This document shows, one piece after another, positions 39,768 to 60,942 of a DNA stretch of 64,000 nt. The notes below the pieces were generated by a model. That model had not been told where the DNA came from. It saw nothing but the letters and a program-made list of their open reading frames with translations, and ran no database searches. Origin of the DNA: Limnomonas spitsbergensis (taxonomy: Eukaryota; Chlorophyta; Chlorophyceae; Chlamydomonadales). The stretch spans positions 62,001-126,000 of the forward strand of contig JAYJMM010000020.1 in assembly GCA_037349105.1 (NCBI GenBank). Reading direction: 5' to 3'. Both the position numbers and the translations under genes were made by a program. How positions within the stretch are numbered: position 1 is the first letter of the stretch; each line of letters begins with the position of its first letter.

Positions 39768-39768
39768 C

Positions 39769-40181: not shown

Positions 40182-40186
40182 GCGGA

Positions 40187-40250: not shown

Positions 40251-40252
40251 GC
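40251..40252. other. GC spacer at the A2/B1 junction of element C
   Basis: The junction reads GTGACA-GC-TGTCGC, so GACAGCTGTC is a perfect palindrome. Element D has the identical junction at 42641-42642. Confidence 0.9.
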
Positions 40253-40495
40253 TGTCGCACCATAAAGCAGTAAACGTGCCAATATGGTAAACTCCGGAAT
40301 CTCCGGTAAAGGCGCCTTAGAGAAGTGTCCTTCTACTCATAAACACGGTACATTACCGTACACACAGACTCCTTGTACTTCAGACAAGAGCTGTTAACTG
40401 GCTACTGTAAGGTTCGGCCCTAGCAGGAAGTCTCTCTGCCTAGGGGTAATGTCTGGGTGTCCCTGTCTTGTGGGTACCGCCCCTACTACTTCACT
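40253..40495 (-). repeat. element C repeat B1
   Basis: 243-bp direct copy of B2 (20608-20850) with about two differences (for example CCGGTAAAGG versus CCGGTGAAGG). It lies next to a C-run, oligo-G on the sense strand. Confidence 0.9.
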
Positions 40496-40505
40496 CGCCC
40501 CCCCG
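40496..40505 (-). promoter_or_regulatory. polypurine-tract-like oligo-G of element C
   Basis: On the sense (minus) strand AGCGGGGGGGCG directly precedes B1, as a plus-strand primer tract would precede a 3' LTR. It is the same arrangement as in element D. Confidence 0.6.
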
Positions 40506-41853: not shown

Positions 41854-41857
41854 CTGC

Positions 41858-41918
41858 TGTCGCGGCACAGGGGTGCACCCTAAGGAATAGGTGCACCAAG
41901 CGAAAATAACACAAGACA
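41858..41918 (-). repeat. element D repeat B2
   Basis: 61 bp, identical to B1 at 42643-42703 as far as I can read. Confidence 0.92.
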
Positions 41919-41919
41919 C

Positions 41920-42640
41920 AGTACTAATAAACTCTTACAGAGCTTATAGTAAGAGCTTCTCGATCCACTGTTGTAACTCAGTGAAGTCAGCTCGATAACA
42001 GGTGATAGCTCTTGCTACTTCACCTGGACTTCTTCGATACTGTTGACAAGATCTCGTAAAGCCTCGACACTTGAGGTACTTATGGGTTTCTTGGGACGAT
42101 CTTGGGCGATTGTGGCCGTTGATCTGTGGTGATGAGTCGCTTGCTTGGCGACTTCTGATGACTGAAGATATCTCTGATGAATCAGATGGTCGACTTGGAG
42201 CCAAAGGAAAGGCTGTAGATTGGAGGTGTGATGGTGGGTTGGTGGTAATATCCAGCTGTAGACTGGAGATATGCCTTGTTAAGAGGCAGGAATAACGCTA
42301 ATTGCTGCAGATGGTCGACTGTTGGCCTAGGTGCTCTGCCAGCTTCGTATCAGGAGACTTGTTGATGCTTATAGAGTCGCTGTTGGCCTAGTTGCTCTGC
42401 CAGTTTCCCCTTAGTAAGACTTGGATTGACGATTAACTTGCATGTTGATAATCAGGAACAATAGCTAGAAACGTTAAGAGTCTATTGTAGGCCGTGAGAT
42501 CAAAGTAAGAAAGAAAAAGTAAAGGACCCAGTTCGGGATCCTCTAAGACGGCAAACACACTTGTACAGGTTCACACATAACTTCCAACCGAAAAAGCAGT
42601 TGGCGCAGTCAAACGCACGGTGCAGTCATACGTCGTGACA
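41920..42640 (-). repeat. element D repeat A2
   Basis: 721 bp. It matches A1 (52339-53059) except for CCACTGTTGTAA versus CCACTGCTGTAA and TTGCATGTTG versus TTGCAGGTTG. Confidence 0.95.
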
Positions 42641-42642
42641 GC

Positions 42643-42703
42643 TGTCGCGGCACAGGGGTGCACCCTAAGGAATAGGTGCACCAAGCGAAAATAACACAAG
42701 ACA
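42643..42703 (-). repeat. element D repeat B1
   Basis: 61-bp copy of B2. It is separated from A2 by GC (42641-42642), forming the palindrome GACAGCTGTC. Confidence 0.92.
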
Positions 42704-42713
42704 TTCCCCCCCC
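42704..42713 (-). promoter_or_regulatory. polypurine-tract-like oligo-G of element D
   Basis: Sense strand GGGGGGGGAA immediately before B1 (TGTCTTGTG). The position is that of a plus-strand primer at a 3' LTR boundary. Confidence 0.65.
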
Positions 42714-43412
42714 AGATCGAAAAACACTGGAGGCGGTAATGAACAAGCACGACAGCGTTTTAAGAACTGCGTCTTGTTATCTGACTTCCCACCCTTGGGC
42801 CCTGCCCAGAGTCCATGGGGCACAAGTACCGGTAGGAAAAATAACCTCCGATATAATGCGTACGTTAGCTGTGACTTTTACGCATTACCGTAACTCGCCA
42901 CAGTCGCTTTAAGGGACCCTCTTCAAGCTGAAGAGCCCAGTTCTCGTCACCATCGGTACTGTTCACCTTCCCCCACGGCCCAATCGACCCCAAGTCCAGA
43001 AGACTACATCAGCCCTGCTCTAGTGCAATTGGTTTCCCAATCCACACCATCTGAAACTTCCCGATCACCTAACTAACACCTGATCGAGGATGCCTATAGG
43101 CTCGCGCCAGACATATGAGAATGCCACCTCACGGTAGACACCTCCTAAACCCTAAAAGTGCGTATTATGCACAACAACCTTTCCCCCCCCCAGATATTGA
43201 AAACTGCACGCAATTTTTATTTTATTTGAAATCAAGTGTTCACAGTCAAATATTCGCAGTCATTTAGTTCCAACTTTGGCTCACAATTCTCAGCACCAGA
43301 AAATTCAAAGCTCTATCCTAATTCCCAGCTCCCCCCCAGATCCAGTGAAAATTCAGCTCAGATACACCGTCAATTGCCAGAGTTGATGAAGGGGACACAG
43401 CTATATTCTGGC
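42714..43412 (-). other. element D 3' non-coding region
   Basis: About 700 bp. It contains two further CTGGGGGGG motifs on the sense strand (C-runs at 43183-43191 and 43331-43337). No ORF is supported. Confidence 0.55.
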
Positions 43413-46235
43413 TTAACGGATGAACGTGTGCATCGGTGTGATCATCCTGGCCCGGATAGCCGCTGTTGCAAATACGAGGATCCACACTTTGTTGCTGCAA
43501 TAGCCGTGAATGGATCGGTTAGCGCCCAGACCTGCTGTGAAGCTGACAGACTGCAAAATGACTAGCCGCCTTTTTCTCCGTAGTTGGGACAGCCACTCAA
43601 GCCTTGCTGGATGACACGTAAGGAAATCTTGGAAGACTAAGCAGCAGGCCACGTGACGCGCGTACTTGACCGCGAGAGCGCAGGAGATGTCAGCGTATTC
43701 AGCAGGAGGGTTTGTGATAAGGACATGCAGCCCATGCTGTCGTAGCAGAAACTCGTAGGTGGAGGGTTGCAGTGGGTCAGCACAGTAGTCTGCAGGGACG
43801 TTGACACCGATGCCCGAATAGGTGAGAACGTGGAGGGGTCGAGGGTAAGGGTAAAGCTGGCTGTTTTGCAGAAGCCCGCTGGCTTGCCCATTATCCTTGA
43901 ACAACAAAAGAATGCTGGGGGACAGGGATAGGTCAAGGCAGTCCAGCAGGGTGTTGCAGTCGCTGTCTTCAATGGTGAGAGGTGAAGGAGGGTAGAGTTG
44001 GTACGACCATCCTCCCGGCACCCTGTTGCCCAAGTAGACTGCGGCCTCATCGCGCTCTCGCCACACTCCAGGCATTAAAGGCTTCAGAGCATCCACCGCA
44101 TCTCCGCGAACACCCCAGTTGATGAAATCTGGGGGCACCCAAGGATGAGTGACATGGCTTTCGAACCTCTTGTTGGGGACGCGGATCCTCACGGATGCAC
44201 GGGTAGGGCGCTGATCATCAGTTTGCCCCTCCTCAGCGATTTCCTCCTTGCTGACAACTGCGACGGTCCTGGCAAGCTCAACCGCATTGCTTCCGGCACC
44301 GCCTGCGGCGGTCCCGGCAAGACAATCTGCGTCCTCTTCCTTGTCTTCAACGTGTCCTTCTTCTTCACCCTCAACAAGGCCACCGCCACTGGCGGCTCCC
44401 ATCACCCTTCCTGCCTTCTTTTGCTTAGCAGGCCGCAGCTGGTAACCTGTCACGGCGGCCGCTGGTTCCTCCAGTTCCGCCGCAACATCACGTCTTGCAG
44501 CACCAGTAGCGTCAGCTCCAGCAGTCCTACATTGCTCACAAATCCAGTAACCAGCAGGAACAGTAGTAAGCCGTGGTACCAAACAATACGTGTGAGTGCC
44601 TCGACCACAACTGCCACACATAATCATTTTCTTAGCATTATCAGGCAGCAGACATCTCTGGCAAGGGAAGTCTGGTGCTGGCTTTTGCCATCTTTTGGAT
44701 GGGGGTAAGAGTCCCTCTATGGGCAGATGACATGGTGCGCAGTTAATAGCGTTCTCAGCCACAGTCACCCCATTGCGACCAACCAGGATAATGACTCCAC
44801 TTGGCCGTACATCAAACACCCGAAGCACGTAAGGTCTTGCAGTGGAGTGCAGCCGGTTCTCATCCCGCACGTACACAAACTGCCCCTCAGTATACTTAGC
44901 TATTGATGGGAGGTAACCTCCACTACGAAGCCTTGCGTAACGCAGGGTATCTCGCTGTTGAGCAACCAGAAGATTCTGGCCGACCATCACGCAGTTCTTG
45001 GCTAGCAATTCAGAACGGGACAGTACAAGTTCAGCAGCAGAATCCACATCCAGGTAATCCACTGCCTGATCCCCATTCAACCTTTCCATGATAGCGGGAG
45101 GGATGACTGGCTCACAGGAAAACAGCAGCTGGTAGGGACTCATCAAGGTGCTAGCATGCTTAGTGACTCGGTACCCGAGTGCTATCCAGGGTAAATACAT
45201 GTCCCATTCTCGAGGCTCTCTTGAAACGTGCAAGTGCCTTGATAATGCAGTTTTTACTGTCTTTACCAGTCTTTCCGCTTGCCCATTGGCTTGGGGATGG
45301 AAAGAACTGGTAACTCTATGATCAATCATGGCACGAACAAGCAGTGAGTCCATTTCACCTTGAAATTCCCCACCACCGTCTGTGACTACTTCAGCGCATG
45401 CCCCGAATCGTGCCAATATGCCGTGCAGGAAATGGTAAGCTACTTCTTTAGATGATTTAGCAGTCATAGGAAATACCTCAACCCATTTAGAGTAGCTTTC
45501 TACAGCTACCATAACATAGGTATGGCCACGGTTAGAAGCCGTATAAGGACCAGAAAGATCCAAGTGCCATCGGTACATTAGACCTCTGATGGGTAAGGGA
45601 TGCATAACAGGCTGCATAGCATTAAACGATACTTTAGTGTAATCACAGGCCTCGCAGCACTGGACCACTCTCTTGCAGTCATTATACAAGCCAACCCACC
45701 AGTGAGTCATCATAACAAGCCCCGTTGTGCGGCGCCTGCCATAATGACCATTTTCTACATGCATTTTGTGCACGAGTGCCAACCGGTCACCAGGGGGTGG
45801 TACCACCTTGGTTGTACCGCCTGGCATTCGTCGATATAGAATACTCTTTTCTGCAGACCAGAGATAAAGCGCAGCTCGTCGTTGAAGACGCTTGCGTTCT
45901 ACAGGGGTCAGCATAGGCAACATTGTGTCAGTGGTACGCCTCAGATATTGCATAGCATTATTATCCAACCAGATACCTGCGAAGGAGCGAGACTCTTCCT
46001 CACGGGTCATGGGCTGCTCTATCAACTCAGCCGCTAAGGACTGAGCTGCATGTAAGATCAGGGAATCTCCAGCAGCAAACAAATGATTAAGCTGCTGAGA
46101 TATCTGATCACCATCCCCCCCCAGCTCCAGTCCTGAAGTGGCAAAGGAATGGGGGAGAAAATTATTGAAGGCAGGGGGAAAAAAAATCCTGCGAAGGTGG
46201 AACCGCTGCAAAGCGGACTGCGAGGCCAACAGCAA
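43413..46235 (-). CDS. element D integrase with PHD finger and NPP-motif methyltransferase-like domain
   Basis: About 940 codons, opening just after a TGA with no ATG; the first in-frame Met is about residue 76. Domains: HHCC zinc site (H159, H164, C194, C197); DDE catalytic core with D226 (WHLDLSGP), D286 (VVTDGGGEF) and E321 (ANGQAER), the classical D-D-35-E spacing; a C-terminal integrase region to ~500; a PHD finger at 525-569 with C4HC3 ligands C525, C528, C540, C543, H548, C551, C566, C569; an acidic/Ala-rich linker; and ~700-925 with ITNPPAEY (NPP 842-844) then a CCLVFQDFL strand and a VWILVF strand, resembling Dam-like N6-adenine methyltransferases carried by some DIRS elements. The integrase would join element ends to target DNA; the PHD would read histone H3 tails. 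It overlaps the DNMT ORF by 74 bp in another frame. The MTase assignment is the least certain part; Ala-Glu-Tyr replaces the usual aromatic after NPP. Confidence 0.85.
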   Translation of the reverse strand: MLLASQSALQRFHLRRIFFPPAFNNFLPHSFATSGLELGGDGDQISQQLNHLFAAGDSLILHAAQSLAAELIEQPMTREEESRSFAGIWLDNNAMQYLRRTTDTMLPMLTPVERKRLQRRAALYLWSAEKSILYRRMPGGTTKVVPPPGDRLALVHKMHVENGHYGRRRTTGLVMMTHWWVGLYNDCKRVVQCCEACDYTKVSFNAMQPVMHPLPIRGLMYRWHLDLSGPYTASNRGHTYVMVAVESYSKWVEVFPMTAKSSKEVAYHFLHGILARFGACAEVVTDGGGEFQGEMDSLLVRAMIDHRVTSSFHPQANGQAERLVKTVKTALSRHLHVSREPREWDMYLPWIALGYRVTKHASTLMSPYQLLFSCEPVIPPAIMERLNGDQAVDYLDVDSAAELVLSRSELLAKNCVMVGQNLLVAQQRDTLRYARLRSGGYLPSIAKYTEGQFVYVRDENRLHSTARPYVLRVFDVRPSGVIILVGRNGVTVAENAINCAPCHLPIEGLLPPSKRWQKPAPDFPCQRCLLPDNAKKMIMCGSCGRGTHTYCLVPRLTTVPAGYWICEQCRTAGADATGAARRDVAAELEEPAAAVTGYQLRPAKQKKAGRVMGAASGGGLVEGEEEGHVEDKEEDADCLAGTAAGGAGSNAVELARTVAVVSKEEIAEEGQTDDQRPTRASVRIRVPNKRFESHVTHPWVPPDFINWGVRGDAVDALKPLMPGVWRERDEAAVYLGNRVPGGWSYQLYPPSPLTIEDSDCNTLLDCLDLSLSPSILLLFKDNGQASGLLQNSQLYPYPRPLHVLTYSGIGVNVPADYCADPLQPSTYEFLLRQHGLHVLITNPPAEYADISCALAVKYARHVACCLVFQDFLTCHPARLEWLSQLRRKRRLVILQSVSFTAGLGANRSIHGYCSNKVWILVFATAAIRARMITPMHTFIR

Positions 46236-47901
46236 TCAGGTGACTGACAGCATTAGCATCAAAGGCTCCTCCTACGATCCTGTGACGCACAGAGAGGATA
46301 AGATCTTTTCCAGCAGTACAGTCAGCAGCATAACCCAGAGCACGTTCACGCTCATGTATGGTGAGAGAGTGTCTAGTGACAACTCCTGTCTGATCTGTTT
46401 CCAAAACAAGTCCAGGTTCATATTCAGGGTAGGGACGGAACACGTAAGAGTCTAGTCTTGCAACCATCGTAGGAAAAACCCGGAGGGGTTCATTCAAGAT
46501 GTTGGCTGGATGATATGGGTATCTGTTAACTTTGAAACAGGTACGGGGTTCTCTACCATGATCCAGTATGTCGGTCAGGCGCAATGTATCATCACGTACA
46601 AAGGACATTATCACCATCTGCAGAGAAGTGGGGGAACATATATTCTGCCAATAATTACGCAGGCGGTGGGCATAGCTGCCAACAACAACTGCGTCAAAGC
46701 AAACTGGATGTCCCAGCCTCTCCGTAAGCTCCTGGAACCCTTCTCGCATGGCCTGCGATTGGGCCATAGCAAATTGTACAGCGACATTTTCAATGAAGTA
46801 CATGGGTGGGCGTCTACCCTGTTGCATGTGCTGGAGAGATCCAAGAACCTTAATAAGAGGGAAGAAAGTAGAACTCTTCTCTCCTTGCAGTCCCATACGT
46901 TTCCCTGCAGAAGACAGGTCAGTGCACATAAATCCTGTTGTTAGCATCCACTGGGTACCATCAAGGCATCCAATGTCAATGAGATGTCTTTCATTAATAT
47001 CGTAGACATCCTGCGGCAGCCGGTTGAATGTGTTAGCAATAGCGTCATGGCTCAGAAGATTGGGATATTCCTCCATGAGTAACTTAAGTCTGTGCTTAGG
47101 ACAGGCCCTCGCACCATTATCAATGTCGGCATAGTAATAGTGGTTGATGCGGATGCCATTTCTTAGCATGCATTCTAATCCACCGCACATGCCACCAAAA
47201 AGCTCAATCAAGGAAATACCTTCTTGCACAGCAGTAAGGATGATGGTTTGGGGAACAGGCGTAGAATTTATTGACTGAATCCCTTTTCCCACTGGATTGC
47301 CCTCCTGAGAATGCTCCTGCACCTGCAGTGAGGTATAGTGAGAAGGAGGCAATTCCTGCAGATGCAGGCGACATTCTTCAACCTGCGAAGAAGCTGTTCC
47401 TCTTAAGGCGTTCTGTTTCTGAGACAGAGAATCCATCTGCGGCACATGAATACGGGTGGAGAATGAAGCAAAGCCATTAATCTCAAAATCAAAAGCAGCT
47501 GCAGTATCAAATGCATTGCAACAACTTATTTCATCCATGTCATCAGGATGCACGAAAGCAGTAGCTAATGAATGAATCTGGTTCGTAACAGATGGACCGA
47601 ACGTGGGGGAGGGCCAATAGGCACGAGTCCTAGGCAGTCCTGGCCACTCGGTTGGTGAAGGAAAAGATACTTCATCATCCTCAGAAATCATTTGTAATCC
47701 AGGAACAGCTTGCTCCTTATCAGGAGCTGGATCAGGATCAATTGCGGGGCCAAAGGGTTCTATGGCAAATCCCCACGGGACTGCACTCTGGGGAGTCCTT
47801 GACAAACACACAGCCATGAGGGAATACGCTAGTTTAGAGCTATTAGCAGTCAGGTCAGTGTTTACACCTGATCCACAGAACGCAGAATTCAAGATATGCA
47901 T
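46162..47901 (-). CDS. element D DNMT3-like cytosine-C5 DNA methyltransferase
   Basis: 579 codons from ATG 47901 (MHILNSAFCG). The N-terminal ~225 residues are unassigned and low in structure. The catalytic domain follows: motif I LIELFGGMCGG (231-241, AdoMet binding), motif IV GFMCTDLSSAG (323-333, nucleophile Cys326), motif VI IENV (370-373), motif VIII AHRLRNYW (411-418), motif IX/X LTIHERERALGY (513-524) and GGAFDANAVS (544-553). The C-T-D-L-S and A-H-R-x-R-x-x-W patterns favour the DNMT3/DRM branch over DNMT1 or bacterial Dcm. It would transfer methyl groups to cytosine C5 in nuclear DNA. Oddity: the residue before the catalytic Cys is Met where Pro is nearly invariant. Cytosine methyltransferases captured by retrotransposons are known from dinoflagellates and a charophyte alga. 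It ends at a T8C5 run overlapping the integrase ORF. Confidence 0.85.
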   Translation of the reverse strand: MHILNSAFCGSGVNTDLTANSSKLAYSLMAVCLSRTPQSAVPWGFAIEPFGPAIDPDPAPDKEQAVPGLQMISEDDEVSFPSPTEWPGLPRTRAYWPSPTFGPSVTNQIHSLATAFVHPDDMDEISCCNAFDTAAAFDFEINGFASFSTRIHVPQMDSLSQKQNALRGTASSQVEECRLHLQELPPSHYTSLQVQEHSQEGNPVGKGIQSINSTPVPQTIILTAVQEGISLIELFGGMCGGLECMLRNGIRINHYYYADIDNGARACPKHRLKLLMEEYPNLLSHDAIANTFNRLPQDVYDINERHLIDIGCLDGTQWMLTTGFMCTDLSSAGKRMGLQGEKSSTFFPLIKVLGSLQHMQQGRRPPMYFIENVAVQFAMAQSQAMREGFQELTERLGHPVCFDAVVVGSYAHRLRNYWQNICSPTSLQMVIMSFVRDDTLRLTDILDHGREPRTCFKVNRYPYHPANILNEPLRVFPTMVARLDSYVFRPYPEYEPGLVLETDQTGVVTRHSLTIHERERALGYAADCTAGKDLILSVRHRIVGGAFDANAVSHLIAVGLAVRFAAVPPSQDFFSPCLQ

Positions 47902-49925: not shown

Positions 49926-52247
49926 TTACCGGAGGTTCATGTTACTCCGGTCTGTCTTGGTCAGGCTGGCCTGCCCGTCACGCCGGCCGTGGGCACCTTG
50001 GGTCGGGGCACACAATGGGGAACGCTGCTTGCAGCTGTCAGTCAGCATGGGCAGGGCAGAGCACGGGATGGTCTGGCCTCGGTCACTAGCGGCCTGACCA
50101 GTGTCAGCCCACATCTGCCGAATCTCCCACTCCCCAATCACATGAGTCTGCACAAAATGGTGTGCATTAGACACAGCCTGATCCTCCAACTCAATTGGCT
50201 CGGGTGGGTCCTTGTTGAGGGGGCCCATCTCTAAAACAATCTCATTCTGCTCTCGACCATGACTCTCAAAGAGCGGGTCTCGCCTCCGGAACCTTGGCTC
50301 AGCTGCCAGAGATCTTGTGGGGGTCCCCCCCCCAGTTGTGATTGATACCTCACCTTGTGTGCGTGAGCCACGCTGCCTTGTAACTAAATCTAGGGTGACC
50401 TCCTGGTGCCCTCGTGATTCTCGGAACAGCTCAGTGCTTACCTGGATTCTGTCAGTGGAGGTTCCAAAATCGGCTTTTGAGGATTGCACACTACCAACCG
50501 AGTCGTGCTGATAGGAACCTCGGTTATGAGTCTGACTTACATCGGTGGTGCTGCCCATGACCACTTCAAACATTCCCTTCACCCTCTTTGTCAGAAATGA
50601 CCAGATGTTAGGGGACTCGCCGTCGGGGATGGAGGCCGGGTAACGTGACTTACCAGCTCCGGATCCACTCTCCGGAACCTCGAACCTTTGGTCGAAGGAG
50701 TATTCCTGCATGGGCACCGCCTCCGGGAAGCACACATGCTCTAGGGGCAGTGGCAACATTGACTGCCGGGATCCCATGTGAGTTTTAGGAATCGTCCCCA
50801 GAAACTGACCCAAGGTCGACAACAAGGACTCTTTACCTGGCGAGGTGCTCATGAACTGACTGGCCGCATGGCTCATTTCAGACACCGGACTGGATGGCCT
50901 GATCGACTCACATGCGTAAGAGACTGGAAGTATAGTGTGGTCCTCTACATGCCCGTCCTCGGTCTCCTCATGCAACATGGATGCGGAGGGCATGCTTGCA
51001 ATACTCTGCATGAGTTGTTCACCTTCATGTAGCCTTGCATGGGCTTGCATGGGACGCTCACTCGTTGTCTCCTCATGCGACATGGAAGCAGAGGACAAGT
51101 GCACATGGCACCGCATAGGCTGCGCACCTTCTGGCAGACTTGCATGGCTCTGCATGGGCTGCTCACCTTCATTGCTCACTGTGGTATGGAATGACTGCGA
51201 CACAGCAGGCCATGTGGAGCGATTACCTTGTGTATGGGGCTCTTCGTCACTGACTTCTTCACTCGTGCTTCCCCCAGACCCATCACCTTCCGGTTCTTCC
51301 GACACAAACGCCAGACCTTGCATCCGAGGCACTGCGTCCTCGTACCGTCCAGACTGTGGGTAGACAGGTGAGGTGTGCATCTGTCCAGCCGACCTTGCAG
51401 GGACTTGCGACGGCGGCGGCGGTGGTGGCGGTGGCGGATGTGATGATCCAGATTCCACACCATGACCTTCTCTCCTCACAGATGCACCCTGAACAGGCGC
51501 AGCATTGGAGGGAGGGACAGAAGCGGCAGCAGCAACAGGCACGAATACTGGGATGTCCGTAACATGCACATGCACTGGTGCACTCTGCGCCATGGGCTCG
51601 TGCACCGCAAAAGGCATTGACACGTGCACAGCAGGGGACAGTTCAGATGCTCTCTGGGGCGCGGCTACTGATGTAGCAGACCCAGACTGAGACCCACCCT
51701 CAGCATCAGCTACCTCAATCTGTTCTGCAAGCCGTGTGACTTGCGTCACCTTAGAAGGCGTTCCAGAGGACGCGTATCTGGTGTGTTGGTTACTGAAGTG
51801 ATCAAACACAGGGTTGTTGACTGGCCACATCACTTGCTCTGCAGTTGCGTTATTCGTGAAAGCCATTTGCACTTGTCTTGGCGACTCGATCAATCCCTGA
51901 TTGATAATAGCCTTTCGCTCATCCTCCAGCTTGGTGATCTTGGCAAACTCTGTCTTATACTGCTCTGGGGGAAGGTTATACGGAATAGTATTCATCGCAA
52001 GCTTCACTGCGGCATGCTTGTCCGATAACTTGTCCAGCAACACCCTTTCTTTGTCTCCAGCCTTGGCATACATCAGATCCCATGCACTACTGGCTCTCAC
52101 TGGCAGAACTGCAGAGCCAGATGATGCACCTTGATCAGCTTCTGAGGAAACTTTGGCTGCTATGGCTCCCCTGGTTCGGGTAGCAATGCTATCCTTATCA
52201 ATCTCTGGAGCGCCTTTGGGCACTTCTACAGCCCCTATTTCGCTCAT
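49926..52247 (-). CDS. element D gag-like / structural ORF
   Basis: About 773 codons from ATG 52247 (MSEIGAVEVPKG); the frame opens slightly further upstream at a GTG. Residues ~45-180 are helical and charged (DLMYAKAGDKERVLLDKL, EYKTEFAKITKLEDERKA-like), compatible with a coiled coil or capsid-like domain. The remainder is long, low-complexity and Ser/Pro/Gln/His-rich, with repeats of a MQSHASLPEGAQ-type motif and a poly-Pro run. No zinc knuckle, protease or RT motif was seen. As the first ORF after A1 it holds the gag position, and the name rests on that position only. Confidence 0.5.
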   Translation of the reverse strand: MSEIGAVEVPKGAPEIDKDSIATRTRGAIAAKVSSEADQGASSGSAVLPVRASSAWDLMYAKAGDKERVLLDKLSDKHAAVKLAMNTIPYNLPPEQYKTEFAKITKLEDERKAIINQGLIESPRQVQMAFTNNATAEQVMWPVNNPVFDHFSNQHTRYASSGTPSKVTQVTRLAEQIEVADAEGGSQSGSATSVAAPQRASELSPAVHVSMPFAVHEPMAQSAPVHVHVTDIPVFVPVAAAASVPPSNAAPVQGASVRREGHGVESGSSHPPPPPPPPPSQVPARSAGQMHTSPVYPQSGRYEDAVPRMQGLAFVSEEPEGDGSGGSTSEEVSDEEPHTQGNRSTWPAVSQSFHTTVSNEGEQPMQSHASLPEGAQPMRCHVHLSSASMSHEETTSERPMQAHARLHEGEQLMQSIASMPSASMLHEETEDGHVEDHTILPVSYACESIRPSSPVSEMSHAASQFMSTSPGKESLLSTLGQFLGTIPKTHMGSRQSMLPLPLEHVCFPEAVPMQEYSFDQRFEVPESGSGAGKSRYPASIPDGESPNIWSFLTKRVKGMFEVVMGSTTDVSQTHNRGSYQHDSVGSVQSSKADFGTSTDRIQVSTELFRESRGHQEVTLDLVTRQRGSRTQGEVSITTGGGTPTRSLAAEPRFRRRDPLFESHGREQNEIVLEMGPLNKDPPEPIELEDQAVSNAHHFVQTHVIGEWEIRQMWADTGQAASDRGQTIPCSALPMLTDSCKQRSPLCAPTQGAHGRRDGQASLTKTDRSNMNLR

Positions 52248-52319
52248 CTTCACCGTTTTATCGGCTTTAGAACGACCGATTTTCGCCACAGTCGACTAGA
52301 GGTGACACTAGCTAGTCGG

Positions 52320-52334
52320 ACTTTTTCTTTCTTA
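52320..52334 (-). promoter_or_regulatory. element D primer-binding-like site, inverted complement of a site in A
   Basis: Fifteen bases (plus strand ACTTTTTCTTTCTTA), four bases inside A1. They are the exact reverse complement of TAAGAAAGAAAAAGT at 52925-52939 in A1 and 42506-42520 in A2. The position fits a self-primed PBS as in Tf1-type elements. Confidence 0.5.
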
Positions 52335-52338
52335 AACA

Positions 52339-53059
52339 AGTACTAATAAACTCTTACAGAGCTTATAGTAAGAGCTTCTCGATCCACTGCTGTAACTCAG
52401 TGAAGTCAGCTCGATAACAGGTGATAGCTCTTGCTACTTCACCTGGACTTCTTCGATACTGTTGACAAGATCTCGTAAAGCCTCGACACTTGAGGTACTT
52501 ATGGGTTTCTTGGGACGATCTTGGGCGATTGTGGCCGTTGATCTGTGGTGATGAGTCGCTTGCTTGGCGACTTCTGATGACTGAAGATATCTCTGATGAA
52601 TCAGATGGTCGACTTGGAGCCAAAGGAAAGGCTGTAGATTGGAGGTGTGATGGTGGGTTGGTGGTAATATCCAGCTGTAGACTGGAGATATGCCTTGTTA
52701 AGAGGCAGGAATAACGCTAATTGCTGCAGATGGTCGACTGTTGGCCTAGGTGCTCTGCCAGCTTCGTATCAGGAGACTTGTTGATGCTTATAGAGTCGCT
52801 GTTGGCCTAGTTGCTCTGCCAGTTTCCCCTTAGTAAGACTTGGATTGACGATTAACTTGCAGGTTGATAATCAGGAACAATAGCTAGAAACGTTAAGAGT
52901 CTATTGTAGGCCGTGAGATCAAAGTAAGAAAGAAAAAGTAAAGGACCCAGTTCGGGATCCTCTAAGACGGCAAACACACTTGTACAGGTTCACACATAAC
53001 TTCCAACCGAAAAAGCAGTTGGCGCAGTCAAACGCACGGTGCAGTCATACGTCGTGACA
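52339..53059 (-). repeat. element D repeat A1
   Basis: 721-bp partner of A2 (41920-42640). Its outer end GTCGTGACA abuts the CTGC target duplication. Confidence 0.95.
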
Positions 53060-54724
53060 CTGCTCCTCATCGGTCATGCACAAGTACCCTGCCGGCACAG
53101 TGATCACGAACTTGCTCAGCTTGACCCTGGTGGCCACAGGCAGCCCTTCATAGAACATGTGCGAGACCGAGTGCCTTCTGCCAAAGTAGTCCACTGCATC
53201 CCTGGAGATATGTAGCAACTCTGCTGTGGACAGGACTCTGTGCGCAAACGCCTCTACTGTCTCCTCTGGCTTGACCTCTGGATCCAAAGTGGTCTTGACT
53301 CCCAGCTTGATGTTGGTGATCGCGGATCTCTCATCCGAGGTCGGCTTTCCCACTTCCGCCTGAACCACCTTGATCCACAAAGTGAGCAGCGAGGCCTCGC
53401 AACACTGCTCCTCTGCTGGGGCGATCCACTGCTGCCTGATCCGTTCCACTTCTCTGGCAATTCTGTTTCCTGCATGGGGCGCCGCCCTGATGGCTGCCAT
53501 CAGCGGCCCCACGCTAGCTGGCTTGCTGTCCCAAAGCTTGACCAGCGACTTGATCAGCAGTGTCATAGCTGACGGCGACTGGCACGATCCAGCTATTTCT
53601 CCGGCCACCACAGCCAGCGCTGGCTGGTCATCTGACATTGCCAGCCTGTTGTGCGATCCCCAGTATCCACACGCCTGGCAATATTTCCTGGCTGCAACTG
53701 CGCCTGGGTGCGACATATCCAGGACTGGCACGTTGCCTTGGATGGCTGGGATCTTGGTGACCTTGGCCACCCCTGTCAGCTGCAGGACCATCTGTTGCTG
53801 CAGCTGCAGGGTCACTCTCGCCTGCTCCCTGTCGATTCTCTTCATTTCTTGGTCGCTGGACTCCTGCCTGGTTCTTGGCCTGCGCCTGTCCGCTCCCCTT
53901 GGCTCTGAATCCGCTGATTCTGAGCGCGATCCATATCCACCTCCTCTGCCTCCTGATGGACTGCGACCTGGATAGTATCTGTCGAATCTGTTGTCATCGT
54001 CCTCCCGATCTTCCCGTGATGGCTGTCTGCCTGCTCTTCCTGCGGAGCTTCTACTCCCGTCGCGCGGCTGCCTCCCGGTCTCACTTCTGCCTGGTCTGTC
54101 GCCCGACCCGGGCCTCCAAGGATGTGCTCTGCCCGGTCCTGCCTGCCCTCTGGGCGGCTCCTGGCTTTGCCGATCCTGCTGTGCTCCCCTGCTGCATTCA
54201 TCTGTTCCCCTGGGTGGCTCCTGGCTTTGCTGCCTTGGCTGTTCCCAGCTGTCTGCCTGCCCCCTGGGCGGCTCCTGGCCTTGCCGATTCGGCTGTTCCC
54301 AGCTGTCTGCCTGCCCTCTGGGCGGCTCCTGGCTTTGCCGATTTGGCTGTTCCCTGCTGTCTGCCTGCCCCCTGGGCGGCTCCTGGCTTTGCCGGTACTG
54401 CTGTTCTTCACCGCTTGCTTGCCCCCTGGGCTGCCCTTGGTTCTGCCTTCCTGGCTGCGTCCCTCCTGTGTAATTCCTGGCGTAGGAATCAGATTGCGTT
54501 TCCCCTCTGGTTTCCTGCCTTCTTGGTCCACTGTTGCGCACACTGCCTACAGGCTCGTCCTGTTGTGTTCCTCTTGCTGCGCCCTCTTGCCTTTTCCTCA
54601 GGAACTCCTCGATGTAATCCACCTGGGTTTCCTGGCATGTATTCTCTTTGTCCTCGATTATGCGCAGGAGTGCATAAGACTCTTGCCTGTTTGCTCTGCG
54701 CGTTGCTACGCCTTGCTCAGCCAT
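53060..54724 (-). pseudogene. element C gag-like ORF, 5' part (interrupted by element D)
   Basis: From ATG 54724 (MAEQGVATRR) about 555 codons to the element D insertion; the frame then runs a few codons into D and stops. With the 3' part at 41575-41853 it would be about 647 residues. The first half is Gln/Arg/Gly/Pro-rich, with five repeats of about 18 residues built on QSQEPPRGQAD. The second half (~300-550) is helical and capsid-like (WIKVVQAEVGKPTSDERSA, ETVEAFAHRVLSTAELLHI), reminiscent of a retrotransposon Gag capsid. A short Cys pair (KYCQACGYW) precedes it. No enzymatic motif was seen. It overlaps the preceding 130-codon frame by 4 bp. Confidence 0.65.
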
Positions 54725-54744
54725 CCTGGCCAGCGATCGGCTAG

Positions 54745-55303
54745 TCAACTTGACTCCGCCCTTTCGCTGGCGGCTGGGCTACTGGCCCTGGGCTCTTCCC
54801 TGCCCCTTGGCCGCCCCCTGAGGCTTGGCTCGCTGCTGACCTCAAAAACCTCAGATCTGAGGGTTGGCGCGGTTCTTGCTTGCTGCTGCCACCTTTGGAC
54901 TTCCCTGAGCTCCTCAGGCCGCTGCCCCGCTGTTTCAAATCCTTCCCATGCCTGGTCCTCCTCATCTTCTGGCTCGGATCCCGGTTCCACCTGATTTCCT
55001 GTTACCTCATTGCACCACTCATCTGCGAAGGCCTTAACAGCCAGGGCTGCTTCGCGTCCAGCCCTTCCCTTGGATACCTGTCCAAGGGCGCTTAACAGCG
55101 TCGCCCTGTCCTGCCCTGTGTGGGGGATACCCAGCATGGCCTTTTGTTGCCCATCCCCTCAGATGATGGGCCTTGAACTCCTCAATGGCTGTGACCTGGT
55201 CCTGGAAATGCAAGAACGTCCTGGAGCAAACTTGCTTCCACAGGTCTGTTGCCCACTCACTGCAAAATTCCTGCCCAACCGATCGGTCCTTCTGACTCCT
55301 CAT
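54745..55303 (-). pseudogene. element C coding remnant in two frames
   Basis: Two overlapping minus ORFs, 55034-55303 (with SEWATDLWKQVC) and 54745-55137 (LLSALGQVSKGRAGREAALAVKAF), read like successive parts of one helical protein in different frames. This implies a frameshift or a small intron. The WAT..WK.VC motif recurs near the start of the 1380-codon ORF (QWATGVWKSVC), so the two ORFs may be related by duplication. Confidence 0.4.
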
Positions 55304-55431
55304 TCCGGCACACTAATCCCCCAGTCCCGGAGCGCTCTGGTTCTCTAGGTCTGGTATCCTGCGCCTGTGCTGTACCTTGATAAAATCCGCGCAGGATTTC
55401 CTTGTGGCTGCCGCCTGCTCGCATCTGGCTG

Positions 55432-58400
55432 CTAGATCCCTCCTGGGGTGTCTGCACAGGTCTGCCCACACTGGGCGTCCAAGTTGAATTTGGACAGCGG
55501 CGTCCCGTAGACTGTGGATCCCGCCCCTCTTTTAACCGGCACCTCCATCGGCTGCTGACGGGCACCTGTTGCGCGATTCTCCCAGATCCTGGCCAGCTCC
55601 ACATCTGCAGGCACCGCAGCATGGATTGCTACCAGGCACACATTCCTGCTGCTGCTGATGTCCACGTGTGCTGGCACCGGAGACCTGCTGCTCCTAGCTG
55701 CTTCCACGTTACTGTCAGCTGCCTTGCCTGCCATTGCCTGGCTGGACTTGCTGCAGCCGTCAGGGCCCAGACTCAGGCTAGGGCTGGCTTGACCCACTGG
55801 CCCACACGGCTCTGCTGAGCGGAAGCCCTCCTGCCTGGGCAATCTGGGCATGCACTCCTGGTGCTGCGGCGGCTGTGCCTCTTTTTTCGCCTCATGGCTG
55901 GCCTGCTCAGCCCCGTGCCCCCCGGGTAGTGCCACGTGCCATGTAACCATGGCTATCTGCTGCAGCTGCTGCTCTTCCTCTTCCTCACCTGTAGGCAGCC
56001 GCGCCTGTAGGTTCTGTTTGGCATGTTCCAAGCAATGCTTCACCATCCTCAGCTGTCTGGTCATCCTCATCTTCACTGCTATTATTGGCTGCTTGGCCAC
56101 CCACAGCTGCCTGGCCATTCCTTTAAGCTTCTGCCGGTACCAATTAACATTTTCCCTCAGCATGGGTATGGAGATTCCCTGCTCCTCTGACCCCTCAGGA
56201 TTCTCTGCCGCCTCCAGCTGTTTGCTGGCCTGCTGGGCCGCCCCTGGTTCTGATATTGGCACCTGGACCCCTCCTGGAGCTGCTGCCACTGGTGGTGTCA
56301 CAGGCCCATCCTCTTCTGGCTGGTGCATCTGCACCAGCACCGGCGCCTGCCTGTGCTCGTGGTCCTCAACCTCACTTGGGCCAACTGGTTCCTCAGCCAC
56401 CTTTTGGTTCAGCTTCTGCTCCCACGGATGCAGTTGGTCCGGCTCGCAGCCGCCGGCCACCACAGGTGTCACATGGGCTGCCTCCCTTGACAAACACAAA
56501 CGTGACGCCTGCACCTGCAGTTGGCCTGGCTCACAGCCACCGATCCCTACAGGTGTCACATGAATTGCCTCCCTCTGCAAGCACCGTCGTGACGCCTGCA
56601 ACTGCAGTTGGCCTGGCTCACAGCCCCCGGCCACCCCAGGTGTCACAGGAACGTCCTCCATCTGAAAACACAGCCGTGACGCCTGCACCTGCAGTTGGCA
56701 CGGCTCGTGGCCATCGGTCACCACAGGTGTCACAGGAACTGCCTCTCTCTGCAAACACAGCCGTGACGCATGCACCTGCAGTTGGCCTAGCTCACAGCCA
56801 GCGGCCGCCACAGGTGTCACATGGGCTGCCTCCCTCGGCAAACACAGCCGTGACGCATGCACCTGCAGTTGACCTGGCTCACAGCCACCGATCCCTACAG
56901 GTGTCACCGGAACTGCCTCTCTCTGCAAACCCAGCCGTGACGCCTGCACCTGCAGTTGGCTTGGCTCGTAGCCACCGGCCACCACAGTTTTCACAGGAAC
57001 TGCCTCCTTCTGCAAACACAGCCGTGATGCCTGCACCTGCAGTTGGTCTGGCTCACAGCCACCGATCCCTACAGGTGTCACAGGAACTGCCTCCATCTGT
57101 AAACACAGCCGTGATGCCTGCACCTGCAGTTGGTCTGGCTCACAGCCACCGATCCCTACAGGTGTCACAGGAACTGCCTCCATCTGTAAACACAGCCGTG
57201 ATAGTGCCTGCACCTGCAGTTGGTCTGGCTCACAGCCACCGATCCCTACAGGTGTCACAGGAACTGTCTCCTTCTGCAAACACAGCCGTGACGCCTGCAC
57301 CTGCAGTTGGCCTGGCTCACAGCCACCGGCCACCACAGTTTTCACAGGAACTGCCTCCTTCTGCAAACACAGCCGTGATGCCTGCACCTGCAGTTGGTCT
57401 GGCTCACAGCCACCGATCCCTACAGGTGTCACAGGAACTGCCTTTCTCTGCAAACACAGCCGTGACGCCTGCACCTGCAGTTGGCTTGGCTCGGAGCCAC
57501 CGATCCCTACAGGTGTCACAGGAACCGCCTCTCTCTGCAAACCCAGCCGTGACGCCTGCACCTGCAGTTGGCTTGGCTCGCAGCCACCGGTCACTGCAGG
57601 TGTCACCGGAACTGCCTCTCTCTGCAAACCCAGCCGTGACGCCTGCACCTGCAGTTGGCTTGGCTCGCAGCCACCGATCCCTACAGGTGTCACAGGAACT
57701 GCCTCCATCTGTAAACACAGCCGTGATGCCTGCACCTGCAGTTGGTCTGGCTCACAGCCACCGATCCCTACAGGTGTCACAGGAACTGCCTCCATCTGTA
57801 AACACAGCCGTGATAGTGCCTGCACCTGCAGTTGGTCTGGCTCACAGCCACCGATCCCTACAGGTGTCACAGGAACTGTCTCCTTCTGCAAACACAGCCG
57901 TGACGCCTGCACCTGCAGTTGGCCTGGCTCACAGCCACCGGCCACCACAGTTTTCACAGGAACTGCCTCCTTCTGCAAACACAGCCGTGATGCCTGCACC
58001 TGCAGTTGGTCTGGCTCACAGCCACCGATCCCTACAGGTGTCACAGGAACTGCCTTTCTCTGCAAACACAGCCGTGACGCCTGCACCTGCAGTTGGCTTG
58101 GCTCGGAGCCACCGATCCCTACAGGTGTCACAGGAACCGCCTCTCTCTGCAAACCCAGCCGTGACGCCTGCACCTGCAGTTGGCTTGGCTCGCAGCCACC
58201 GGTCACTGCAGGTGTCACCGGAACTGCCTCTCTCTGCAAACCCAGCCGTGACGCCTGCACCTGCAGTTGGCTTGGCTCGCAGCCACCGGCAACCACAGTT
58301 TTCACAGGAACTGCCTCCTTCTGCAAACACAGCCGTGATGCCTGCACCTGCAGTTGGTCTGGCTCACAGCCACCGATCCCTACAGGTGTCACAGGAACTG

Positions 58401-59574
58401 CCTCCATCTGTAAACACAGCCGTGATGCCTGCACCTGCAGTTGGTCTGGCTCACAGCCACCGATCCCTACAGGTGTCACAGGAACTGCCTCCATCTGTAA
58501 ACACAGCCGTGATAGTGCCTGCACCTGCAGTTGGTCTGGCTCACAGCCACCGATCCCTACAGGTGTCACAGGAACTGTCTCCTTCTGCAAACACAGCCGT
58601 GACGCCTGCACCTGCAGTTGGCCTGGCTCACAGCCACCGGCCACCACAGTTTTCACAGGAACTGCCTCCTTCTGCAAACCCAGCCGTGATGCCTGCACCT
58701 GCAGTTGGTCTGGCTCACAGCCACCGATCCCTACAGGTGTCACAGGAACTGCCTTTCTCTGCAAACACAGCCGTGACGCCTGCACCTGCAGTTGGCTTGG
58801 CTCGGAGCCACCGATCCCTACAGGTGTCACAGGAACCGCCTCTCTCTGCAAACCCAGCCGTGACGCCTGCACCTGCAGTTGGCTTGGCTCGCAGCCACCG
58901 GTCACTGCAGGTGTCACAGGAACCGCCTCTCTCTGCAAACCCAGCCGTGACGCCTGCACCTGTAGTTGGCTTGGCTCGCAGCCACCGGTCACTGGTTTGG
59001 GTGAAAAAGCATAGTTCCCTATCGGAACACAGTTGATCAGGTGCAGCTGCTCGCTAGCTACCGGGCTATCCTGCCTGGCTGGGCCGGCACTCTCTGCCGT
59101 AATACAGTTGATCAGGTGCAGCTGCTCGCTAGCTACCAGGCTATCCTGCCTGGGTGGGCCGGCACTCTCTGCCGTAATACAGTTGATCAGGTGCCTGGGA
59201 CTTGGCTCACTGTCACTGCTGAGGATATCAAACATGGACCAGCCGTTGGGGGACACCTGATTACCTGGCTGCTCCATACACCTGGTCAATGCCTCCAAGG
59301 GTGCGCGCTGCAGGGGTACAGCCAGACTGCTTAACCCCGCCTGCTCTGCGTCACACACACTTTTCCACACTCCAGTGGCCCACTGCCCTAGCCTGTTCCA
59401 CCCTATTGGCTGAGCCAGATCCTCCTTCCTTTTTACTGGGGGCCATTCCGCAGTGGCGGCTTTTGCTTCACCCACCGCCCGCAGATCTGCAGGTTTCCTG
59501 ATCACCTGACTTCCACCACGGGGCATCGTCCCGTTCTCCTTTTGAACGCACTGCGCAGCACTTGCCACTCTCAT
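55432..59574 (-). CDS. element C large repeat-bearing ORF
   Basis: 1380 codons from ATG 59574 (MRVASAAQCV). Residues 1-130 contain a helical stretch with QWATGVWKSVC. Next are two to three 25-residue units (HLINCITAESAG...), then about 29 units of 29 residues (GGCEPSQLQVQASRL followed by a Q-(R/K/M)-E-A-V-P-V-T-P-type stretch), one Cys in the first part of each unit. The C-terminal ~350 residues include a charged helical region (MLRENVNWYRQKLKGMARQLW) and a Glu/Gln run. The repeat unit is exactly 87 bp, so the frame is kept. It is the first ORF after A1, the gag position of the element. No known domain is recognised. The repeats could form an elongated structural protein, or the array may simply be expanding; a frameshift may separate it from the following remnant. 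Confidence 0.5.
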   Translation of the reverse strand: MRVASAAQCVQKENGTMPRGGSQVIRKPADLRAVGEAKAATAEWPPVKRKEDLAQPIGWNRLGQWATGVWKSVCDAEQAGLSSLAVPLQRAPLEALTRCMEQPGNQVSPNGWSMFDILSSDSEPSPRHLINCITAESAGPPRQDSLVASEQLHLINCITAESAGPARQDSPVASEQLHLINCVPIGNYAFSPKPVTGGCEPSQLQVQASRLGLQREAVPVTPAVTGGCEPSQLQVQASRLGLQREAVPVTPVGIGGSEPSQLQVQASRLCLQRKAVPVTPVGIGGCEPDQLQVQASRLGLQKEAVPVKTVVAGGCEPGQLQVQASRLCLQKETVPVTPVGIGGCEPDQLQVQALSRLCLQMEAVPVTPVGIGGCEPDQLQVQASRLCLQMEAVPVTPVGIGGCEPDQLQVQASRLCLQKEAVPVKTVVAGGCEPSQLQVQASRLGLQREAVPVTPAVTGGCEPSQLQVQASRLGLQREAVPVTPVGIGGSEPSQLQVQASRLCLQRKAVPVTPVGIGGCEPDQLQVQASRLCLQKEAVPVKTVVAGGCEPGQLQVQASRLCLQKETVPVTPVGIGGCEPDQLQVQALSRLCLQMEAVPVTPVGIGGCEPDQLQVQASRLCLQMEAVPVTPVGIGGCEPSQLQVQASRLGLQREAVPVTPAVTGGCEPSQLQVQASRLGLQREAVPVTPVGIGGSEPSQLQVQASRLCLQRKAVPVTPVGIGGCEPDQLQVQASRLCLQKEAVPVKTVVAGGCEPGQLQVQASRLCLQKETVPVTPVGIGGCEPDQLQVQALSRLCLQMEAVPVTPVGIGGCEPDQLQVQASRLCLQMEAVPVTPVGIGGCEPDQLQVQASRLCLQKEAVPVKTVVAGGYEPSQLQVQASRLGLQREAVPVTPVGIGGCEPGQLQVHASRLCLPREAAHVTPVAAAGCELGQLQVHASRLCLQREAVPVTPVVTDGHEPCQLQVQASRLCFQMEDVPVTPGVAGGCEPGQLQLQASRRCLQREAIHVTPVGIGGCEPGQLQVQASRLCLSREAAHVTPVVAGGCEPDQLHPWEQKLNQKVAEEPVGPSEVEDHEHRQAPVLVQMHQPEEDGPVTPPVAAAPGGVQVPISEPGAAQQASKQLEAAENPEGSEEQGISIPMLRENVNWYRQKLKGMARQLWVAKQPIIAVKMRMTRQLRMVKHCLEHAKQNLQARLPTGEEEEEQQLQQIAMVTWHVALPGGHGAEQASHEAKKEAQPPQHQECMPRLPRQEGFRSAEPCGPVGQASPSLSLGPDGCSKSSQAMAGKAADSNVEAARSSRSPVPAHVDISSSRNVCLVAIHAAVPADVELARIWENRATGARQQPMEVPVKRGAGSTVYGTPLSKFNLDAQCGQTCADTPGGI
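56450..59010. repeat. 87-bp tandem array with ~612-bp higher-order unit
   Basis: About 29 copies, each with CACCTGCAGTTGG, a GGCTCACAGCCACCGATCCC-like stretch, TACAGGTGTCACAGGAACTG and CTGCAAACACAGCCGTGA. Seven-unit blocks recur with a 612-bp offset (for example 57404-57718 versus 58016-58330); one unit per block carries three extra bases (GATAGTGCCTG). Confidence 0.92.
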
Positions 59575-60278
59575 CAGCCTCTTCTGCGTCGCGTATTCTG
59601 GCCCACTGCCTAGGTCTCTGCGTCCCTTTCTATTGGCTCATGGGATTAAGCTGGGTAGGCCTCGCCTTTCTGCTTTTCTGCTCACTAATTTTAATCTGGC
59701 GGAATCCTCCTTCGCCCTCTTTAGTACTTCTCACCTTTGCTGGCTGAGCTGCTTCTAGATGGCACACGTCCCGCGTGGATGTCTCGCGTCCTACGCGGAG
59801 GTATCCTCTTGCGTAGTGTCCGTTCAGCTCTGCGGTCCTGCGGGGATCCTTTGGTACACCCACAAAATTTCAAACCTGGATGTTCTATCCACAAGTTCAC
59901 TTCTGTCAATGATGAAAGATTGGATCCACCTGATCTCAATCTGCAGTCATACAGGTAATTATCTGCTGGATAAATCCCCAGCCAGATCTTCAAGCCTCTC
60001 CTGGACTCAACACTAAGCTGCCACGCTCAATGCACAGGGAATCAAGCTGGGTTTATAACTCCACAACTGGATCTTCGAGCTTCTCCCCAAGGCTCTTCAC
60101 AGCTGGAGTTTGCAAGATCTAATTTGGCGCGAAAAGCCCAAGCAGAATGCAGCGACAGATAGAGGTGCTTTTTCAAGCTGTCCAAGGCGAACAATTCAAA
60201 AAAATATTCCAGGTCAGACAAGCTTAGCTTCCCTCAGCGAGGAACTCGTTGGCAAGCAGCTGATCAGGCTGCAATACC
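59575..60278 (-). other. element C 5' leader
   Basis: About 700 bp between A1 and the first ORF. No supported ORF. It contains scattered GATCT/AGATC words. Confidence 0.5.
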
Positions 60279-60300
60279 ACTTTTGTCCCTTTTGAAGGAC
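60279..60300 (-). promoter_or_regulatory. element C primer-binding-like site, inverted complement of a site in A
   Basis: A 22-bp sequence, one base inside A1, is the exact reverse complement of 60719-60740 within A1 (also present in A2 near 21269-21290). The central word is TTTTGTCCCTTTTGAAGG. It matches the arrangement in element D. On the sense strand a TGGTATTGCAGCC word lies just downstream and is an alternative tRNA-type PBS. Confidence 0.5.
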
Positions 60301-60301
60301 A

Positions 60302-60938
60302 CTGAGAGCGGGGATGCTCGGGGTTGCGAAGGAACGGCGACGGAGGTGACTTTGTCCGTGGGTTTTGTCGCCGGGCGGACTCAGCTGGAAGCTGGCACGC
60401 CGAGAGCTCCTGGTCGGCTTTGCGCCTCCTGGTCTATTTATGTGAATATCTGCTTGGGACTGCTTGCCTGATTAGTCGTCTCCGATGGACGAGTAGTCAG
60501 GGATCGGCACCGTAGGTCGCGTGCTCTTCAGGGCGAGCTCCGTTGATCGCGTCGGCTGGGGATGACCAGTGATATGGATGGGGCTCGCTTGTCACTTGCT
60601 TATGCTATCACCACTTTCCGTGATGCTAGACTTGACTGAAGTGTAAGGTACTGACTTAGTGGCGAGCAAGGGCTAGTATCCGTGAGAGCTAGGCCTATAC
60701 TCTTTACACCAGAGGCCTGTCCTTCAAAAGGGACAAAAGTAGTAGCTTAGGCAATTGCCGGGATACAGGGACCCGGCAGGCCCAATTCAGAGTACAGATT
60801 ATGCTAAATCACCCTGCGTAAGCGGGTTTCTAGGTCTCAGTTCAAATCAGGAGACTCCGCAGAGAAGCTGCGGAGGCTCCGCGGCCGCTAACGGCGGCTC
60901 AAACGGTTCTGTCACGTATACGGTAATATACTGTGACA
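60302..60938 (-). repeat. element C repeat A1
   Basis: 637 bp, uninterrupted, so it shows the empty site for the gypsy insertion found in A2. It ends ACTGTGACA next to the ATTA duplication. Confidence 0.92.
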
Positions 60939-60942
60939 ATTA

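Follow-up and report, generated by a model that had tools for sequence, protein, structure and literature searches.

How does a retrotransposon insert itself when its direct repeats are split between its two ends and the enzyme it encodes is a DDE integrase? The question is raised by a stretch of Limnomonas spitsbergensis DNA (64,000 nucleotides, positions 62,001 to 126,000 of contig JAYJMM010000020.1, assembly GCA_037349105.1; hereafter the window), in which one retroelement lies inside the gag-like open reading frame (ORF) of another, both on the minus strand. A first-pass annotation had described two elements, C and D, taken here to be the outer and the inner element from the order in which it gave their target duplications (ATTA and CTGC). 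It had proposed that both follow one plan, and the minus-strand coordinates confirm this: on the sense strand each reads A1, internal region, oligo-G tract, B1, GC, A2, B2, with TGTC at the start, GACA at the end and a 4-bp duplication on either side. The B1-GC-A2 joint is, as had also been claimed, the same palindrome in both, GACAGCTGTC. The span that had been assigned to the pair, 41858 to 60938, takes in all of the inner element but, of the outer one, just the right part. It will be argued that these are most probably self-primed gypsy-type long terminal repeat (LTR) retrotransposons with an integrase site in the middle of the LTR, in which end joining leaves a variable joint between A2 and B2.

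Is this layout peculiar to one locus? GACAGCTGTC occurs twice in the window, where 0.13 occurrences are expected; the whole 260-Mb genome has 2196 occurrences, 6.4 times as many as the 344 of a reversed control. Twenty stretches of 10 kb each were sampled around the first listed sites; nine of them passed the repeat test with a B-A-GC-B plan, the second B extending to 790-883 bp from the junction. A chance origin of the layout is ruled out by these nine loci together with the genome-wide excess. The length of B differs among the sampled loci (48, 63, 233, 234, 242, 243 and 246 bp), which indicates that several families share the split-repeat plan. The remaining 11 loci include a truncated inner-family copy (L001) and five loci without relation in the printed flanks (L003, L004, L007, L008 and L014). 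L009-L013 are five near-identical copies, around position 5000, of another repeat that carries GACAGCTGTC and has no split-repeat structure. In a search with the inner repeat, the 40 candidates scored out of 727 comprised 18 with B-A-GC-B, ten with B-A only, six with A-GC-B and six with A only.

Exact 4-bp target duplications flank 15 of the 17 complete elements, and the other two match in three of four bases. These 17 are ten paired inner-family copies, the inner element of the window, the C106 element, the outer element of the window, L005, L002, L015 and L020. The ten pairs come from 14 A1 candidates: four were dropped, L068 and L070 for want of an A1 start, L057 as part of a tandem and L069 because it lacks a B2 partner; loci L022 and L023 were left out of the counts. 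When A1 ends were paired with B2 ends, the 4-bp flanks were identical in nine pairs and matched in three of four bases in one. For the outer type, the duplications of the window element, L005, L002 and L015 are exact, and that of L020 matches in three bases. Thus, the split plan and its duplications recur in complete copies elsewhere in the genome. The annotation had considered that such copies might instead carry ordinary B-A LTRs at both ends. In the data seen this arrangement is absent: the window elements and the ten paired inner-family copies begin with A1 and finish with B1-GC-A2-B2, and it is A rather than B that directly precedes the primer-binding site (PBS), a 26-mer across the inner A1-PBS boundary having 191 exact genome sites and its control none. 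Terminal inverted repeats are clear only in L018, where none of 2000 shuffles was equally good; they are weak in the outer element (29 of 2000) and L020 (14), and not significant in the inner element (166), L006 (101) and L002 (335).

Which enzymes would move these elements? The inner element encodes a complete HHCC-DDE integrase, as had been reported: its H2C2 and rve domains contain H159, H164, C194 and C197 together with D226, D286 and E321, all invariant in an alignment of ten sequences, and it is of the D-D35-E type. The two elements had been called unrelated in coding sequence. This holds for the window copies, which have no ORF in common, but not for the families, since the integrase of autonomous outer-type relatives is 43% identical to that of the inner type over 488 amino acids; the inner integrase and that of an ordinary gypsy element in the window are 26% identical over 233 amino acids. 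Inner-family copies elsewhere have an open frame of 2253 amino acids (49 scored of 1752 candidates). Pieces of L001 and L021 taken together give Pfam matches to RVT_1, that is, reverse transcriptase (RT), RT_RNaseH, DNA_methylase, Integrase_H2C2, rve and PHD for the inner type; Integrase_H2C2 and rve are matched in the L001 piece, and RVT_1, RT_RNaseH and RT_RNaseH_2 in both L021 and L006. L006, which has an inner-type A end, also matches H2C2, with a methylase match under the cut-off and no match to rve or PHD in its scanned pieces. The outer type (L002, L018 and L020) matches RT_RNaseH, DNA_methylase, Integrase_H2C2, rve and PHD, the methylase of L018 being under the cut-off, and in all three elements the integrase and RNase H share one open frame. 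The L015 piece gave no meaningful Pfam match. Relatives with a tyrosine recombinase and no integrase, which had been named as the contrary case, were not seen among the pieces scanned: RT and DDE integrase were found, and none of 17 protein pieces, which do not span every part of the complete copies, matched Phage_integrase. The best organism-named homologue among the best 120 of 150 matches is from Chlamydomonas eustigma, which, with the TTTAGGG filler described below, would point to a green-algal host; no relative was confirmed in viral contigs. By their predicted enzymes (RT, gypsy-type RNase H and a downstream H2C2-rve integrase), the elements are gypsy-type.

How would reverse transcription be primed, and what is the LTR? 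Part of A has its perfect complement in the stretch just past A1; the match measures 15 nt for the inner element, 23 nt for the outer and 22 nt for L005. In L002, L015 and L020, also of the outer type, whose A1 ends are loci L072-L074, the complementarity spans 23-24 nt, and these ends confirm where the PBS lies. In the autonomous outer-type family, where the search for the complement started from the site as already read in A, the 22-mer self-primer complement has 1274 genome sites (control 0); the first 100 listed include 35 inverted pairs 425-437 bp apart and none in the opposite order. The complementarity between A and the PBS suggests that reverse transcription is probably self-primed. 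At the other end of the internal region, the oligo-G tract lies directly 5' of B1 in 20 of 20 inner-family copies. Since the oligo-G tract precedes B1 and the PBS follows A1, the LTR of reverse transcription would be B-GC-A, running from after the oligo-G tract to before the self-primer-binding site.

The two joints of this structure behave very differently. The B1-GC-A2 joint keeps one length throughout the 20 inner-family copies compared, with point changes only. By contrast, the A2-B2 joints of the inner family comprise 36 different strings at the 74 genome sites whose flanks match exactly and whose spacer measures 3-30 nt; some of these sites (on C83, C101, C113) are possibly segmental duplicates. 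At 64 of the 74 sites the joint opens with TTGTTTA, which combines the bases that follow A1 with the start of the PBS; B comes next, with or without intervening filler. The most frequent version, TTGTTTAA, accounts for 19 sites; one joint (C86:391749) contains a copy of the whole 15-nt PBS, the fillers of L046, L053 and L056 repeat the A end or the B end, and the inner copy in the window has a short deletion. That A2-B2 varies while B1-GC-A2 is fixed suggests that the former is probably the scar of cDNA end joining and that the GC site is the one used by the integrase. B1-GC-A2, on this evidence, may be read as copied through RNA, and the joint of the cDNA ends within the integrated copy would, in the inner family only, be formed anew every time.

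One joint has a more unusual filler. In L024 (899-975), A2 and B2 are separated by about ten TTTAGGG telomere repeats, which start from a TTGTTTA seed, and, after them, by part of B in duplicate. This looks like telomerase acting on the end of a cDNA or of a chromosome before joining. The genome search for the joint returned one exact site and no second telomere-repeat joint, so that it is a single case and not a pattern.

What sequence of events could produce one fixed and one variable joint? Reverse transcription would yield an ordinary linear cDNA, B-GC-A-internal-B-GC-A. The GACA-GC-TGTC palindrome in each LTR might then serve as a preformed two-end attachment (att) site, where a single staggered cut 3' of both CAs would create two processed CA-OH ends sharing the 2-nt GC, in a manner that may resemble retroviral 3' processing. 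Integrase would open the 5' LTR at its GC, and the start of A1 and the cut-off end of B would be inserted together, with a 4-bp duplication. Host end joining would unite the two outer ends of the cDNA, one of them A extended by some copied primer sequence and the other B, either before insertion, as a 2-LTR circle, or after it, and the end product would be A1-internal-B1-GC-A2-B2. It is somewhat likely that integration proceeds from such a circle, or from an equivalent cDNA with joined ends, through the preformed LTR palindrome, and that host end joining is obligatory at each transposition. The first-pass annotation had pictured a circle with two tandem B-GC-A repeats opened at one GC; the variable A2-B2 joint, the fixed B1-GC-A2 joint and the self-primer with its PBS all agree with two such repeats and one such opening, and they accommodate both a circle and later joining.

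Opening of the 3' LTR instead would yield the mirror form, A-B-GC-A-internal-B, which has no exact-pattern match in the genome. If the 5' LTR alone is used, this may be because it is likely to be the first to become double-stranded in plus-strand synthesis. The observed form has 133 raw genome matches at about 88 sites (sites on the plus strand being mostly counted twice), and an oligo-G tract or internal sequence precedes B1 in 25 of 25 inner-family junction loci. The sole B-GC-A-PBS candidate for a mirror form, L057 on C82, is preceded by an oligo-G tract and is part of a tandem.

Several points weigh against this account. The circle, the cDNA and the integrase cut are all deduced from genome sequence. 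The search for the mirror form relied on exact flanks and may miss mutated copies. Only in the inner family is variability of A2-B2 seen: the outer element has the same joint as L005, those of L002, L015 and L020 could all be one GCG-overlap join, and outer-type joints so far appear uniform with short overlaps (the A1 ends of L018 and L019 not being included). Moreover, four of the 25 inner-family junction loci (L025, L026, L028 and L029) have no B2 after A2 within 1.2-1.6 kb, the B2 of L027 is reduced to its last 26 nt, and the A2 of L001 is truncated. In L028 (1-1590), the end of A2 is fused to an inverted piece of the integrase region of another copy, about 97-99% identical.

Could integration come first? 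In a variant that is compatible with the mechanism above, the 5' LTR of a linear cDNA would be cut at GC, both ends inserted, and the host would then rejoin a broken chromosome capped by the cDNA ends, with no circle involved. The resulting end structure is the same as from a circle, and the telomere repeats of L024 and the long non-B DNA after A2 in L025, L026, L028 and L029 would suit the repair of a chromosome break. However, this order requires a double-strand break at every insertion, identical fillers could form on free cDNA, and L028, joined to inverted sequence of its own family, would suit cDNA joining before insertion. The telomere filler and the four A2 ends with other DNA fit joining either on free cDNA or after insertion, and the integration-first order is possible, though less likely than not.

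Are the joints instead inherited? If the element were copied whole, from A1 to B2, the A2-B2 joint would be passed on and its variation would reflect a mutation hot spot; the sharing of TTGTTTAA by 19 of 74 sites and the apparent uniformity of outer-type joints would be expected. In the inner family, however, identity of the joint is unrelated to similarity in A: pairs of copies with the same joint are no closer in A than others (mean distance 0.0208 versus 0.0215, permutation p = 0.46), and the nearest neighbour by A has the same joint in only 2 of 30 cases. L048, L052 and L056 have zero substitutions between their A copies, yet carry three different joints. Fillers made of telomere repeats or of a whole PBS copy also count against inheritance. 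B1 and B2 are also homogenised within elements, differing at 0.28 of 61 positions within an element as against 1.40 between different elements (18 in all, leaving out the solo copies L035 and L037, whose flank ends in GC), which points to renewal of the repeats in every cycle. Inheritance of the joint is thus very unlikely.

Rearrangement of ordinary elements after insertion has to be considered as well. If the LTR were A-B, unequal recombination or nested self-insertion could have produced the present layout, and solo A-B units with target duplications (exact in eight of ten, three of four bases in two) do resemble ordinary solo LTRs. GC-joined tandem copies are also found, in L005 and on C82 (L057/L071), as expected from unequal exchange between A1 and A2, of which they are a possible product. 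L005 (2084-8799) is a short non-autonomous tandem, A-internal-B-GC-A-internal-B-GC-A-B, flanked by the duplication TTTG, and it looks like the result of unequal exchange between A copies. Rearrangement nevertheless seems highly improbable as the source of the plan itself, given that 17 complete loci, of two repeat types, have the split plan together with target duplications, that the PBS immediately follows A at 191 sites, and that the positions of the polypurine tract, next to B, and of the PBS, next to A, make B-GC-A the LTR of reverse transcription; nor would different joints among copies with the same A be expected from rearranging a fixed LTR.

Least plausible of all is that these are split-direct-repeat elements of the PAT/Ngaro/TOC1 type, moved by a tyrosine recombinase encoded elsewhere and carrying a DDE integrase incidentally: although the A1-B1-A2-B2 order is the plan of such elements (PMC4157794) and the order A-coding-B-A-B is reported for a methylase-bearing DIRS element of a dinoflagellate (PMC5890265), exact 4-bp duplications flank 15 of 17 complete and eight of ten solo copies, the integrase is in frame with RNase H in L002, L018 and L020 and keeps its HHCC and D-D35-E residues in ten sequences, and Phage_integrase was unmatched in the 17 pieces scanned, parts of complete copies lying outside the scan.

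How do the elements compare with known systems? In the insertion sequences IS3, IS30 and IS21, the substrate on which a DDE enzyme acts consists of abutted ends 2-4 bp apart; unlike the elements described here, these are bacterial DNA transposons without reverse transcription. Tf1 has the order LTR-internal-LTR and integrates at its LTR ends. Tj1 has a PBS complementary to its own upstream sequence (PMC4600332), and the present elements resemble Tf1 and Tj1 in their gypsy-type RT-RNase H, H2C2/DDE integrase and a PBS complementary to their own sequence. They differ in their integrated form, A1-internal-B1-GC-A2-B2, and in an integrase site that would lie within the LTR. Split direct repeats have been reported for the tyrosine-recombinase elements PAT, Ngaro, VIPER and TOC (PMC4157794, PMC6681497), whose A1-internal-B1-A2-B2 plan is shared here; in place of their tyrosine recombinases there is a DDE integrase, the target is duplicated over 4 bp, and the A2-B2 joint is variable in the inner family. 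Both Gypsy LTR elements and PAT-like DIRS elements have been reported from relatives of Chlamydomonas (PMC8226300). A cytosine methylase in pol is likewise carried by the retrotransposons KnitGypsy-Dnmt3, an LTR Gypsy element, and SymbioDIRS-Dnmt3, which uses a tyrosine recombinase; the main text of that report does not mention PHD, and its passages on these elements name no internal integrase site (PMC5890265).

An engineered precedent for an internal junction exists in retroviruses. Panganiban and Temin claimed in 1984 that spleen necrosis virus could integrate through an LTR-LTR circle junction placed inside its genome; the 2-LTR circle junction was later refuted as the retroviral substrate, the precursor being linear DNA (PMC11054761). 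The difference is that here a natural element bears the junction-like palindrome in its LTR. In titles and abstract openings of the largely open-access literature no DDE-integrase element of split-repeat plan is evident, though one may be described elsewhere; the family can be regarded as a variant of gypsy LTR retrotransposons with a possibly new integration route.

The features of the two window elements are listed below. In the inner element, identity is 99.7% between A1 and A2 (721 bp) and 100% between B1 and B2 (63 bp). Both window copies look incomplete from their sequence. No RT match was found in the scanned ORFs of the inner element, the scan leaving out 47902-49925, which holds short ORFs only, and neither of the two long ORFs of the outer element gave a Pfam match. 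The C-terminal part of the inner integrase ORF (43413-44300) has, after the PHD finger, a VLITNPP stretch that resembles an adenine-methylase motif; no Pfam match falls there. The repetitive ORF of the outer element (55432-59574) encodes repeats of about 29 residues, in 87-bp tandem units with a higher-order periodicity. An ordinary gypsy-type LTR element (21424-40181), with 413-bp LTRs and an apparent 5-bp duplication, GCGGA, splits the outer A2 and carries on the opposite strand a LINE-like ORF of 3832 amino acids (27269-38767).

Table 1. Positions of the outer and inner elements and their parts in the window
Feature	Position	Strand	Remark
Outer element	20608-60938	-	target duplication ATTA; presumably element C of the first-pass annotation
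Outer, left target duplication ATTA	20604..20607	.	
Outer, B2	20608..20851	-	
Outer, A2, first piece	20852..21423	-	
Outer, A2, second piece, beyond gypsy insertion	40182..40250	-	TGTC start at 40250
Outer, putative internal att site GACA-GC-TGTC	40247..40256	.	
Outer, GC between A2 and B1	40251-40252	-	
Outer, B1	40253..40496	-	
Outer, oligo-G polypurine tract	40498..40504	-	seven Cs on forward strand
Outer, gag-like ORF	53064..54748	-	split by inner element; position only, no Pfam match
Outer, repetitive ORF, 87-bp units	55432..59574	-	no Pfam match
Outer, PBS	60279..60301	-	23 nt complementary to A1 self-primer
Outer, self-primer in A1	60718-60740	-	
Outer, A1	60304..60938	-	TGTC start
Outer, right target duplication ATTA	60939..60942	.	
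Inner element	41858-53059	-	target duplication CTGC; presumably element D of the first-pass annotation
Inner, left target duplication CTGC	41854..41857	.	
Inner, B2	41858..41918	-	sense-strand right end, terminates GACA
Inner, A2-B2 joint, short version	41919..41920	-	other copies mostly TTGTTTA + filler here
Inner, A2	41921..42640	-	TGTC start at 42640
Inner, self-primer copy within A2	42506..42520	-	15 nt complementary to PBS; position counted from A1
Inner, putative internal att site GACA-GC-TGTC (B1-GC-A2)	42637..42646	.	length fixed in 20/20 copies
Inner, GC between A2 and B1	42641-42642	-	
Inner, B1	42643..42703	-	
Inner, oligo-G polypurine tract	42706..42713	-	eight Cs on forward strand; in 20/20 copies
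Inner, integrase + PHD finger	43413..46235	-	940 aa; H2C2, rve with D226, D286, E321
Inner, C5 cytosine DNA methylase-like ORF	46162..47901	-	Pfam
Inner, gag-like ORF	49926..52289	-	position only, no Pfam match
Inner, PBS	52320..52334	-	complementary to self-primer in A
Inner, A1	52340..53059	-	sense-strand left end, TGTC start
Inner, self-primer in A1	52925-52939	-	
Inner, right target duplication CTGC	53060..53063	.	

What would such elements mean for the biology of retrotransposons? The family appears to have hard-wired a junction like that of a 2-LTR circle into its LTR, and the old question of circle-junction integration thereby becomes testable in a natural system. The rule that split direct repeats imply a tyrosine recombinase seems to be broken here, so classifiers that rely on repeat layout would misfile the family. 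Finally, each inner-family copy seems to be the record of one cDNA end-joining event, so that a single genome may hold a large archive of such scars, one of them with telomere repeats.

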